Assembly (NCBI RefSeq): GCF_000382125.1
Contig: NZ_KB907547.1
Coordinates: 496,001-560,000, forward strand
Length of the DNA: 64,000 nucleotides
Reading direction: 5' to 3'
From: Eudoraea adriatica DSM 19308
GTDB lineage: Bacteria > Bacteroidota > Bacteroidia > Flavobacteriales > Flavobacteriaceae
In this document: positions 39,005 to 49,999 of the stretch, one piece after another
Numbering within the stretch: the first letter of the stretch is position 1
Layout of the letters: the number at the start of each line of letters is the position of its first letter
Position numbers and translations under genes: made by a program
Notes under the pieces: generated by a model
What the model was told of the DNA's origin: nothing
Seen by the model: only the letters and a program-made list of their open reading frames with translations
Database searches by the model: none

Positions 39005-39012
39005 TACTTTAG
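39005..39012 (+). promoter_or_regulatory. -7 element of small-RNA cassette 1
   Basis: TACTTTAG, one mismatch from TAnnTTTG, ends exactly 7 nt before the conserved ATAGCATAAG. No TTG is seen at -33. Confidence 0.5.
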
Positions 39013-39019
39013 ACCTGCC

Positions 39020-39088
39020 ATAGCATAAGTAGGTTAAGTTCATGGTAAGATTTGGGGCAAAAAAGGTGGAGACTTCTCCACCTTTTTT
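39020..39088 (+). ncRNA. Small RNA cassette, copy 1 of 4
   Basis: A predicted transcript of about 69 nt: the conserved segment from ATAGCATAAG to ATTTGGGG, a short A-rich linker and a terminator hairpin. The conserved segment differs from copy 2 only after TTTGGGG and from copies 3 and 4 by one C/T change. The promoter-like box sits at the same distance as in the other copies. No gene overlaps it on either strand. An RNA product is inferred from promoter, terminator and repetition; the function is unknown. The segment contains ATGGTAAGATTTGGG, so a short peptide (28 codons here) is a less likely alternative because the terminator would cut its frame. Confidence 0.6.
39059..39088 (+). terminator. 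Terminator of cassette 1
   Basis: GGTGGAG (39065-39071), loop ACTT, CTCCACC (39076-39082), flanked by A6 and T6. Confidence 0.85.
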
Positions 39089-39232
39089 ATTTGATTACCG
39101 TTTATATTTTATTTTACTTCACATTTAATACGACTTTTCCTCACCTTATATAGTATAATATCCGGCGAAGGGTATTTCAACCAATTAAAAAGAATTTTAG
39201 CCAAAATTTTAATCGACTTTAAAGCAATAACC

Positions 39233-39240
39233 TACATTTG
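39233..39240 (+). promoter_or_regulatory. -7 element of small-RNA cassette 2
   Basis: TACATTTG, an exact TAnnTTTG match, ends 7 nt before ATAGCATAAG. No TTG at -33; a block at 39202-39223 shared with 29612-29633 lies just upstream. Confidence 0.55.
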
Positions 39241-39247
39241 AGGAACC

Positions 39248-39313
39248 ATAGCATAAGTAGGTTAAGTTCATGGTAAGATTTGGGGAAAAAGGCAGGTGCA
39301 AACCTGCCTTTTT
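39248..39313 (+). ncRNA. Small RNA cassette, copy 2 of 4
   Basis: Predicted transcript of about 66 nt with the same conserved segment as copy 1 and a different terminator stem. It lies 228 bp downstream of copy 1. The region upstream of its -7 element is unrelated to copies 3 and 4, so only the transcript and the -7 spacing are conserved. A 61-codon frame starting MVRFGEKGRC begins inside it at 39270 and runs through the terminator; I consider that frame incidental. Confidence 0.6.
39286..39313 (+). terminator. Terminator of cassette 2
   Basis: GGCAGGT (39291-39297), loop GCAA, ACCTGCC (39302-39308), with A5 before and T5 after. Confidence 0.85.
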
Positions 39314-39366
39314 ATTTTATACCCCTATCCCTAACATCATATTTCATTTTCTCAATTCTTACGCAA

Positions 39367-39488
39367 ATTCCAAAATAAGCTTCATTGGTAAGCCTAAAAT
39401 TTACCTAAATTTCTTTGTTATTTCTCACAATACCAGTAATTTAGTAATGCCATAGCATAAGTAGGTTAAGTTTATGGTAAGATTTGGG
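39367..39488 (+). repeat. 122-bp direct repeat, first copy
   Basis: Identical base for base to 39571-39692, offset 204 bp. It spans upstream sequence, promoter and conserved segment of cassette 3 and stops before the terminator. Confidence 0.95.
39415..39444 (+). promoter_or_regulatory. Promoter of small-RNA cassette 3
   Basis: TTG (39415-39417), a 19-bp spacer, and TAATTTAG (39437-39444; one mismatch from TAnnTTTG), 7 nt before ATAGCATAAG. Confidence 0.6.
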
Positions 39489-39518
39489 GAAAAAGGCAGG
39501 TGCAAACCTGCCTTTTTT
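39452..39518 (+). ncRNA. Small RNA cassette, copy 3 of 4
   Basis: Predicted transcript of about 67 nt. The conserved segment has T where copies 1 and 2 have C (GTTTATGG instead of GTTCATGG), which allows a 5-bp internal stem CATAA/TTATG. The terminator stem is the same as in copy 2. Promoter boxes at both -33 and -7 are present. Confidence 0.62.
39490..39518 (+). terminator. Terminator of cassette 3
   Basis: GGCAGGT (39495-39501), loop GCAA, ACCTGCC (39506-39512), then T6. Confidence 0.85.
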
Positions 39519-39570
39519 ATTTCTGATTATCAGTAAATTATATCCATTATTACGAATATATTTCTTCCCC

Positions 39571-39692
39571 ATTCCAAAATAAGCTTCATTGGTAAGCCTA
39601 AAATTTACCTAAATTTCTTTGTTATTTCTCACAATACCAGTAATTTAGTAATGCCATAGCATAAGTAGGTTAAGTTTATGGTAAGATTTGGG
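39571..39692 (+). repeat. 122-bp direct repeat, second copy
   Basis: Identical to 39367-39488. The complete identity, including non-transcribed bases, points to a recent tandem duplication or gene conversion. Confidence 0.95.
39619..39648 (+). promoter_or_regulatory. Promoter of small-RNA cassette 4
   Basis: TTG (39619-39621), 19-bp spacer, TAATTTAG (39641-39648), 7 nt before ATAGCATAAG; identical to cassette 3. Confidence 0.6.
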
Positions 39693-39723
39693 ACGAAAAG
39701 GGTGGAGGCTTCTCCGCCCTTTT
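39656..39723 (+). ncRNA. Small RNA cassette, copy 4 of 4
   Basis: Predicted transcript of about 68 nt. The conserved segment equals copy 3 through ATTTGGG, then diverges (ACGAAAAG). The terminator stem is of the copy 1 type but one pair longer, with T-G in place of one T-A pair. The next gene on the plus strand is more than 800 bp away, so the cassette ends on its own. Confidence 0.62.
39696..39723 (+). terminator. Terminator of cassette 4
   Basis: GGGTGGAG (39700-39707), loop GCTT, CTCCGCCC (39712-39719), one T-G wobble, then TTTT. Confidence 0.8.
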
Positions 39724-40529: not shown

Positions 40530-43500
40530 GTGCAGCACAGTTCATTTAATATATATAATGCTTCAGCAGGATCCGGGAAAACCTTTAAGCTGGTGCAGGA
40601 ATATCTTAAAATTGTACTTTCTACAGAAAATTCAACTGTTTTTAATCAAATACTGGCAATCACTTTTACCAATAAGGCTGCCAATGAGATGAAAAGTCGG
40701 ATTCTTGACAGCCTGTTTGAATTTAGTCATCCTGAAAATCCGAAAAAACCTTCCGCCTTATTTCTATTATTGGCAAAAGACCTGAATATAGAACACGAAA
40801 ATTTACGTAAGAGATCAAATATTGCACTAAAACAAATCCTACATAATTACGCTTTTTTTGATATTTCAACCATTGACAAATTTACGCACCGACTTATTAG
40901 AACTTTTGCCAAAGAACTAAAAATTCCTCAGAATTTTGAAGTAGTATTGGACACAGACCTTTTATTGGACGAAGGAATAGATCGGCTAATTAATAAAGCC
41001 GGAACGGATAAGGTGTTAACAAAAGTTCTGATTGATTTTGCTTTGGAAAAAATACAGGACGATAAAAGCTGGGATATTGCTTATGACCTTACGAAAATCG
41101 GTAAATTAACTTTTGAGGAAAATCAATCCTACCACCTTGAAAATCTCAAGAATAAAAATCCCGAAGATTTTTTAGTACTTAAAAAATTAATTCAAAAAAA
41201 AATCCTCCTTATTGAAGGTGAAGTTGCAGACCTGGCAAAAAAAGCTTTAGAGACTATTTCGCAGTCTGGTGTAGAATTGGAAGTATTTCCCAGGCAAACG
41301 CTACCAAACCATTTTGCTAAAATTTGTGATTTTATTTTTAATCCAACCAAGCTTTACAATAACCAGTTAGAAAAAAATCTACTCGAAGGTAAAATCTTTA
41401 AATCCGGGATTCAACCGCCTGATCCAGAATTTGTATTAGCACTTAAAAAGTGTTTCTTAGATATTAAAAAGAGAATCTATCAGAGATCCTTTTTAAGGAA
41501 TTCCTATTTAAATATCGTGCCTTTAACGGTTTTAAATGCCATCCAACAGGAAATAAAAGCAATTGAGCTAGAGCGCGATCAGATTCCAATATCCTCATTT
41601 AATAAGATTATATCGGAAGAAATTCGGAACCAACCCGCCCCTTATATTTATGAAAGGCTTGGGGAAAAATATCGTCATTATTTTATTGATGAATTTCAGG
41701 ATACTTCACAAATGCAATGGGATAACCTTGTTCCATTAATTGGTAATGCCCTGGAAAGTGTGGATGAACAAGGTAATATGGGATCCCTCTTGTTGGTAGG
41801 AGATATTAAGCAAGCCATATACAGGTGGCGGGGTGGCGAGGCCGAACAATTTTTGAGTCTGGTTAATAAGGAAACCAATCCTTTTGTTGTAGAACCCCAT
41901 ATCAAATCTCTTGAAACAAATTACAGAAGCCGGGAAGAACTAATAAAATTCAACAATGCTTTTTTTACCGCCACATGCCCTTTCCTTGGCAGTCCAAATT
42001 ACAATTTGCTCTTTATGGATGGGAATAAGCAAAATTCTAATGATAAAGTCGGTGGATCGGTGGATTTAAATTTTATCAAAATGCCTCAGGAGAATAAAGA
42101 TTTGGCATATTGTACTGAGGTATTGAATGCAATCAAAAATGCGCTGACAAATAAGTATAATTATGCCGATATCTGTATTCTCACAAGAAAACGAAAGCAT
42201 GGAATTATTTTAGCCGATTTTCTTATTGAACAAAATATTCCAATAATTTCTTCCGAGACACTTTTGCTAAGGAATAATCCCAAAGTCAACTTTCTGATCA
42301 ATTTATTAAAGCATATTAATGCTCCGGAGGATTCAGAAATTTGTTATGAGATATTGTATTTTCTTGCTACAAACAGAAAAAACAAACATGCATTTATTCA
42401 AAAGTATTTAACCGATTTGCCTTCTGCATTAAAAGAAGTTTACAATTTTAATATAGGCGAGCTAAAGTATAATTCTTTGCCTGATGGCCTGGAATATGCT
42501 GTAAAACAATTCCATTTAGTTGAACATTCAGATGCCTACATTACTTATTTTATGGATGAAGTAATTGATTTGGAACAAAAAGAAGATGGCAGTATTACTT
42601 CGTTTATAGACTATTGGGAAAAGAAAAAAGAGAGACTTAGTATTGTAGCTCCTGAAAATCTTAATGCCGTGCAGATAATGACAATTCACAAAGCAAAGGG
42701 ATTAGAATTCCCAATTGTCATTTACCCTTTTGCCAATACGAAAATTTATGATGAACTAGAACCGAAATTGTGGTTGCCTGTTGAAGATTTTGGAGAATTT
42801 AAAGAAGTTCTCATAAATAAGAAATCTGAAGTGGTACATTATGGGGAAACAGCGAAAACAATCTATGAACAGGAACAGCACAGACTGGAATTGGATGCAT
42901 TTAACATATTATATGTGGCGCTTACGAGGGCAGTGGACAGGTTGGTTATAATAACTGAAATGGTTCTTAATGCCAAAAGTGAATTTAAATCGGATAATTA
43001 CTCCGGGTTATTTATCCACTTTTTGAAAACACAGGGAATCTGGGATGAAAATAAAACAAGCTTTTCCTTTGGGTCAACTGAATGCAAAGCCCAGGAACAA
43101 GCTCTCCCCAAAGCGCAACCCAATATACCTTTTATATCTACACAAAAGGATAGTGCCAATTTTAATATTGTAGCACTGTCTGATAATCTTTGGGACAGCA
43201 AAAGAGAAGAAGCAATAAAAAAGGGTAATGTAATACACCATATAATGGGACTTATTGTAACCGAGAGCGATATTGAACCGGCGATTGCGCATATGATAAG
43301 AAAAGGAGATCTTAAAGCCGAAGAAGGTCCTCAAATTAAAGAAGTAGTGCTGCAAATCATTTCACACCCTAAACTTAAGTCATTTTATACTTCGGAGAAT
43401 ACAGTTAAGAATGAATGTGAAATTATAGCCGAAAATGGCCTAATTTTGCGTCCGGATCGCATGGTATTTAATAATAACAGGGTGGCAATAATTGATTATA

Positions 43501-43634
43501 AAACGGGCAAAAAAGCTCAAAAATATTACGAACAGCTACATACCTATGGCGATGCGCTGAATACAATGGGATATTTGGTTGAAAAAAAGATAATAGTCTA
43601 TATAGATAAAAAAATAACCCCAGAATTCATTTAG
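40530..43634 (+). CDS. AddA/RecB-like helicase-nuclease
   Basis: A 1034-residue UvrD-family helicase with a C-terminal nuclease, starting at GTG. Walker A is ASAGSGKTF (residues 11-19), motif II is DEFQD (387-391), later helicase motifs include [14 protein letters not shown] and [13 protein letters not shown], and [12 protein letters not shown] is motif VI. The nuclease core of the PD-(D/E)xK type ends in IIDYKTGKK (D989, K991). It presumably joins the AddB-like protein (46.4 kb) to process double-strand breaks for recombination. The GTG is supported because the P-loop begins only 10 residues later and no ATG precedes it. Confidence 0.9.

Positions 43635-49888: not shown

Positions 49889-49999
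<111 letters not shown>

Follow-up and report, generated by a model that had tools for sequence, protein, structure and literature searches.

Tandem sibling small-RNA genes in Eudoraea adriatica: a putative Flavobacteriaceae RNA family with a candidate LytTR-type regulator

To our knowledge, regulation by small RNAs (sRNAs) is almost uncharted in the Flavobacteriaceae, a family of importance in sea and soil. A 64,000-nt stretch of contig NZ_KB907547.1 of Eudoraea adriatica DSM 19308 (hereafter, the window) raises a simple question: what are the short units that stand in a row between a purF-like and a sodA-like gene, and what might control them? The original prediction, made from the letters of the window, proposed four small-RNA cassettes with no gene between. 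This is borne out: an 83-nt unit occurs at 39005, 39233, 39437 and 39641 (spacing 228, 204 and 204 nt) with no credible gene between the cassettes, the 61-aa open reading frame at 39270 crossing a terminator. Each unit has the claimed layout of a TAnnTTTG-type box, exactly 7 nt and then ATAGCATAAG. Because the flavobacterial sigma-A -7 box TAnnTTTG occupies -12 to -5 (PMC9723704), we place +1 at the purine of A/GCC (39017, 39245, 39449 and 39653). The starts first proposed were thus 3 nt late, and conservation begins exactly at this purine. The four predicted transcripts are ~70–72 nt long (Table 1).

Across the 3.9-Mb genome, the core of these RNAs occurs at the four array sites only (0 for a reversed-pattern control), and a 19-nt piece of it, with up to 3 mismatches allowed, gave 4 matches compared to 0.04 expected in shuffles. 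Copies 3 and 4 are identical over 122 nt, promoters included. In a same-genus genome (L005), copy 3 carries a promoter of the other class and this identity is not shared, which makes a recent conversion or duplication in the E. adriatica genome the likely origin.

Table 1 Features of the array and its flanks (window coordinate = G000:C2 coordinate minus 496000)
Feature	Start	End	Strand	Basis or remark
sRNA copy 1, predicted transcript	39017	39088	+	R1 covariance model match (G000:C2:535017-535088); +1 from -7 box geometry
sRNA copy 2, predicted transcript	39245	39314	+	R1 match
sRNA copy 3, predicted transcript	39449	39518	+	R1 match
sRNA copy 4, predicted transcript	39653	39724	+	R1 match; 'last-copy' type (GTTTATGG + GGGA)
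-7 promoter box, copy 1	39005	39012	+	TACTTTAG
-7 promoter box, copy 2	39233	39240	+	TACATTTG
-7 promoter box, copy 3	39437	39444	+	TAATTTAG
-7 promoter box, copy 4	39641	39648	+	TAATTTAG
Rho-independent terminator, copy 1	39059	39088	+	
Rho-independent terminator, copy 2	39286	39313	+	
Rho-independent terminator, copy 3	39490	39518	+	
Rho-independent terminator, copy 4	39696	39724	+	
122-nt stretch, copy 3 core and promoter	39367	39488	+	Identical to 39571-39692; no direct repeat
122-nt stretch, copy 4 core and promoter	39571	39692	+	Twin of 39367-39488; no direct repeat; TTTG-TTATTT-CACAATACCAG-TAATTTAG
Direct repeat at -69/-49 of copy 1	38948	38973	+	TTCATC-N14-TTCATC; proposed LytTR regulator site
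Direct repeat at -69/-49 of copy 2	39176	39201	+	TTCAAC-N14-TTTAGC; proposed LytTR regulator site
purF-like gene	37015	38913	+	Conserved left neighbour
Fe/Mn superoxide dismutase gene (sodA-like)	39803	40411	-	Conserved right neighbour
Inverted repeat, 18-nt arms	38919	38958	+	Directly 3' of purF

Homologs are present in the same genus and in many other genera of the family, as a search of flavobacterial genomes, called for by the original prediction, revealed. A pattern scan of genome contigs matched at least 117 stretches, with Maribacter, Zobellia, Muricauda, Robiginitalea, Winogradskyella, Aquimarina, Flavobacterium, Salegentibacter and others among the matches listed, while the same pattern had no match in viral contigs, plasmids or phages. 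The covariance model R1 detected the RNA in 100 of 394 genomes of the order, all of them Flavobacteriaceae (~120 sampled), compared to 0 of 274 genomes of the order outside this family, although divergent members may have escaped its scan filters; in a sample of the phylum, R1 found nothing convincing outside Flavobacteriaceae, with one marginal match (E = 0.006). Copy number ranges from 1 to 6 per genome, Zobellia uliginosa (L045) having six, and the location is almost always between purF and sodA: among the matches listed, purF lies beside the copies in 102 of 117 loci and sodA in 92 of 117, many loci being incomplete. With the core recurring from +1 in more than 230 copies, each with its own promoter and terminator and in conserved synteny, the proposal of a multi-copy small-RNA family is strongly supported. 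The cassettes appear to be sibling genes of a ~70-nt RNA family confined to Flavobacteriaceae in the samples searched. Weak R1 matches in the sRNA-negative genomes L212, L224 and L213 fell inside the purF coding sequence and were rejected. Two genomes of genus g32 contain weak second matches (33–35 bits) off the main array (G112:C35:7155-7225 and G117:C5:134574-134649), possibly diverged paralogs.

The array matches no Rfam family. Flavo-1, singled out earlier for comparison, and the other flavobacterial Rfam families have the host group in common with the array, and none matched at the gathering threshold or at E ≤ 10; the sub-threshold matches at E ≤ 10 were terminator-like or chance-like in appearance. 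The loop sequence was not found printed in the literature searched, and papers joining LytTR, sRNA, Bacteroidetes and response regulators held incidental mentions only. The family is apparently undescribed, although one of its transcripts may already be catalogued among Rfp1-89, the sRNAs mapped in another member of the family, Flavobacterium psychrophilum (PMC9723704); one Rfp RNA may be a homolog of the array RNAs.

The 41-nt core from the predicted +1 is nearly invariant, whereas promoter and terminator sequences drift, the terminators keeping their structure as the sequence changes. Over 236 copies the core reads [A/G]CCATA[A/G]CATAAGTAGGTTAAGTT[C/T]ATGGTA(A)GATTTGGG; 24 of its nucleotides served as search bait and are hence selected, yet the unbaited RCC, linker and -7 box are conserved too. 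The predicted array RNA, of which TAAGTAGGTTAAG is a segment, consists of a 5' hairpin, a G-rich linker and the terminator. In the predicted hairpin, RCCAU pairs with AUGGU and inner pairs are added, leaving single-stranded the apical loop (invariant UAAGUAGGUUA) and the linker (invariant AGAUUUGGG). With so little sequence variation, alignment A3 shows weak covariation in the hairpin, and the predicted fold of the core by itself is just marginally more stable than that of shuffled sequences (z about -1). Despite this weak alignment support, paired substitutions preserve the hairpin in divergent members: A-U becomes G-C in L067 and L092, and C-G becomes A-U twice in G201.

Upstream of the transcripts, two classes of promoter can be distinguished. 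In most copies across the family, TTTnAnC occurs twice with a period of 20 bp, in columns -58 to -52 and -38 to -32 relative to the 5' base of the -7 box, or about -70/-50 from +1. Self-matching of 120 non-redundant upstream regions is strongest when they are shifted by 20 bp (0.46 versus 0.25–0.33 at other shifts), a peak not found for last-type copies. The pattern TTYRNC-N14-TTYRNC is present in 101 of 238 promoters, compared to 0–22 for other spacings. When the loci of 22 genomes were fetched by covariance model and not by pattern, TTnnnC occurred twice at period 20 in 40 of the 53 promoters, almost all at -69/-70. The last copy of many arrays has no repeat and instead a strongly conserved promoter, TTT(G/T)TTATTT..CACAATACCAGTA(A/T)TTTAG. 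Within the window, copies 1 and 2 belong to the repeat class and copies 3 and 4 to the last class, and the 'last-copy' type of copy 4 is conserved across genera. The surroundings of copies 1 and 2, initially described as unrelated, are so only in part, as both hold a degenerate direct repeat of 20-bp period at -69/-49. That first description had also missed the putative regulator sites, the division of promoters into two classes, the hairpin at the 5' end and the breadth of conservation.

LytTR sites are made of two 9–11-nt repeats with an 11–13-nt spacer, and YpdB of E. coli binds GGCATTTCAT twice (PMC4847170). The -69/-49 repeat with its period of 20 has this architecture, and the array box GCATTTCATCGAT is comparable to that of YpdB. 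Based on the common motif and on the co-occurrence described below, we propose the repeat as a putative LytTR binding site. A regulon search using a fixed repeat-plus-promoter pattern returned six places, two of them the array, compared to two in the reversed control, and we therefore claim no further regulon members.

The E. adriatica genome encodes ten LytTR proteins. In a first comparison of 11 genomes chosen by sRNA status, the ortholog group of one of these (L235/P0001) fitted best. P0001 has REC and LytTR domains above the Pfam cutoffs (PF00072, 65 bits; PF04397, 74 bits), and its best NCBIfam match, BtsR, reaches 119 bits against a cutoff of 246; the gene lies between priA and rpsF-rpsR-rplI (G000:C1:740109-740369 and upstream). 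A second search covered 60 genomes, of which G052, G268, G060 and G403 repeat the first comparison. Across both, the ortholog was present in all 47 sRNA-positive genomes tested (6/6 and 41/41) and absent from 18 of 20 sRNA-negative genomes, which are not 20 independent events because they form about seven genus-level groups, with at least 10 in one genus, so that the counts are not phylogenetically independent. Negatives of the second search were without the regulator except for G376 of genus g11 and G201. The latter, left aside from the 20, is negative by model search, yet it has the regulator as well as a divergent sRNA whose promoter contains the repeat. Both g11 genomes (G019 and G376) keep the ortholog with no detectable sRNA, while G237 and G403 of genus g32 are without both and other members of that genus keep both. 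The promoters of the LytTR orthologs themselves contain the repeat at period 20 in 17 of 50 cases and at period 21 in 9 of 50, compared to 0 of 85 and 1 of 85 for paralogous LytTR genes; those of genus g32 have no obvious repeat. One clade has a short, ultraconserved leader before the LytTR gene (GATTTAACCCCACAAATC..ATG); a second clade has CTTAACC..AATGTTATG.

The best explanation, and one we regard as probable, is a set of LytTR-activated sibling sRNAs with a box-free basal copy of the last type, which base-pair in trans without Hfq or an RRM protein. An orphan-looking REC-LytTR regulator would bind the two boxes at about -69/-49 and activate most copies; last-type copies, which lack the box but conserve a -33-like element, would provide a basal level; and the RNA would act in trans, pairing by its loop, its linker or both. 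Hfq was not found in the E. adriatica genome, nor did RRM_1 (PF00076) match there, while a control in a Bacteroides matched. Given the invariant loop and linker, the several copies and the response regulator, a base-pairing sRNA is the simplest and most likely mode by analogy with Qrr and FopS. The sequences themselves show the family, its synteny, the promoter classes, the repeat at its fixed position, the co-occurrence with the LytTR gene and the recurrence of the repeat in many promoters of that gene, whereas we infer transcription, activation as the direction of control, control by phosphorylation and base-pairing as the mode of action. A two-part module, in which an orphan REC-LytTR protein has as its main output sibling sRNAs that pair with its own mRNA leader and with other targets, again with a box-free basal copy, seems doubtful.

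Could the direct repeat instead be bound by another activator, for example one of the AraC type, with the LytTR gene co-occurring for another reason? Direct repeats spaced by about two helical turns are recognised by AraC-type proteins as well, the box sequences are degenerate and the g32 LytTR promoters lack the repeat. Set against this are the period-20 repeat in promoters of LytTR orthologs but not of their paralogs, the loss of the LytTR gene together with the sRNA, and the fit of box sequence and spacing to published LytTR sites (PMC4847170), and we judge another activator to be distinctly unlikely. As an extension of the preferred LytTR-activated reading, the sRNA might pair with the leader of its own regulator as main target, giving negative feedback. 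We entertain this possibility tentatively, and the regulator mRNA as a target is speculative. Matches of at least 8 nt to the invariant loop occur in 24% of LytTR ortholog leaders versus 0.8% of 502 control leaders, and matches of at least 7 nt in 9 of 24 non-redundant leaders versus 7%; one clade has two segments complementary to the RNA in the right order, CTTAACC(TA) near -24 and AUGUUAUG overlapping the start codon. However, TTAACC is similar to the DNA box of the regulator itself and may therefore represent an operator, and the energies of the complete duplexes are little better than those of shuffles (mean z -1.3), for which reasons we treat feedback only as a hypothesis; in addition, g32 leaders have no loop match though the sRNA is conserved.

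A decoy that titrates a protein in the manner of CsrB/RsmY or 6S, in place of mRNA pairing, is unlikely: no known sponge partner was found, the Hfq and RRM_1 families being absent from the genome search, and no binding motif is repeated inside one RNA, although the invariant loop and linker are much longer than a usual seed and several identical copies would raise dosage. The nearly constant location between purF and sodA, in the orientation of purF, might point to a cis-acting element of either gene, such as a 3' UTR or attenuator. Every copy has a promoter and terminator of its own, however, in numbers from one to six; in G015, G016 and G023, copies lie on separate contigs, at long distances from each other or in opposite orientations; and purF and sodA are still adjacent where the sRNA has been lost (L212, L220 and L224), which leaves a cis element very improbable. 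A leader peptide, mobile repeat or assembly artefact has a negligible chance of being correct and is refuted as far as sequence can do so. An AUG lies within the core and copies 3 and 4 have 122 nt in common, but a 1-nt linker indel (AAG/AG) shifts the frame between genera, one L111 copy has lost the AUG, searches of plasmids, phages and viral contigs gave no match and the syntenic site is the same throughout the family. The longer coding or mobile repeat against which the original prediction had warned is likewise not what we observed, the unit having neither character.

Among known systems, FopS of Bacteroides thetaiotaomicron (RF04319) comprises paralogous multi-copy sRNAs of ~65–70 nt with TAnnTTTG-type promoters, an unstructured seed and a partner RRM protein, RbpB (PMC11697453). 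The array is alike in being a set of multi-copy Bacteroidota sRNAs of this length with such promoters, a conserved 5' part and a terminator, but its RNAs score 18–20 bits (E 2–6) against a gathering threshold of 56, and local alignment of the R1' seed GTGTTTTTCATAGTATTAGATTTAAGGTTAACAAA to the array core gives p = 0.03–0.19 against shuffles. Unlike FopS, the array genes stand in tandem at a single conserved locus and are associated with a regulator, in a genome where no RRM_1 relative was found. A likeness seen by eye (TTCATrGTA..AGATTTrrGG) was not significant by model or alignment, and homology to FopS was rejected. As to SusC-type targets, suggested by the FopS analogy, only five SusC proteins in the genome were over the cut-off.

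LuxO of Vibrio is of the sigma-54/NtrC type, and the Qrr RNAs use Hfq. The array is similar to Qrr/LuxO in its several copies of sibling sRNAs, probable drive by a response regulator and possible feedback (for Qrr, PMC2680268), and differs in its LytTR type, its tandem order and the Hfq not found; no sequence relation is claimed. By analogy, response-regulator-driven sibling sRNAs as in Qrr/LuxO, here with a LytTR regulator, are the best reading of the array system. AgrA-RNAIII of Staphylococcus is a LytTR-controlled system whose output is also an RNA. YpdB-yhjX of E. coli has, like the proposed array system, two direct-repeat boxes upstream of the promoter and a REC-LytTR regulator (PMC4847170). 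Compared to YpdB and AgrA, the array system has a candidate regulator of another subfamily, a period of 20 and not 21, and a sibling sRNA family as its output.

Several features of the window surround the array. The PurF-like protein is divergent (TIGR01134, 132.8 bits versus a cutoff of 350). The inverted repeat 3' of its gene contains the first box of copy 1 in its right arm and the same box reversed in its left arm, and may be a purF terminator, an operator or both; a similar repeat, TCGATGAAATGCA..TGCATTTCATCGA, precedes copy 1 in Maribacter, Zobellia and others. A UvrD-like helicase with a PD-(D/E)XK nuclease domain (AddA-like, GTG start) is encoded at 40530-43634, and the sole tRNA of the window, tRNA-Ala (GGC), is on the minus strand at 49925-49999.

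If the proposed circuit is true, it would be a previously undescribed regulatory module of Flavobacteriaceae, independent of Hfq/RRM chaperones. The analysis provides an sRNA family of deep conservation, a named candidate for its regulator, predictions of where transcripts start, two promoter classes to compare and joint natural losses; the candidate regulator, the comparison of promoter classes and the joint losses make the circuit directly testable.
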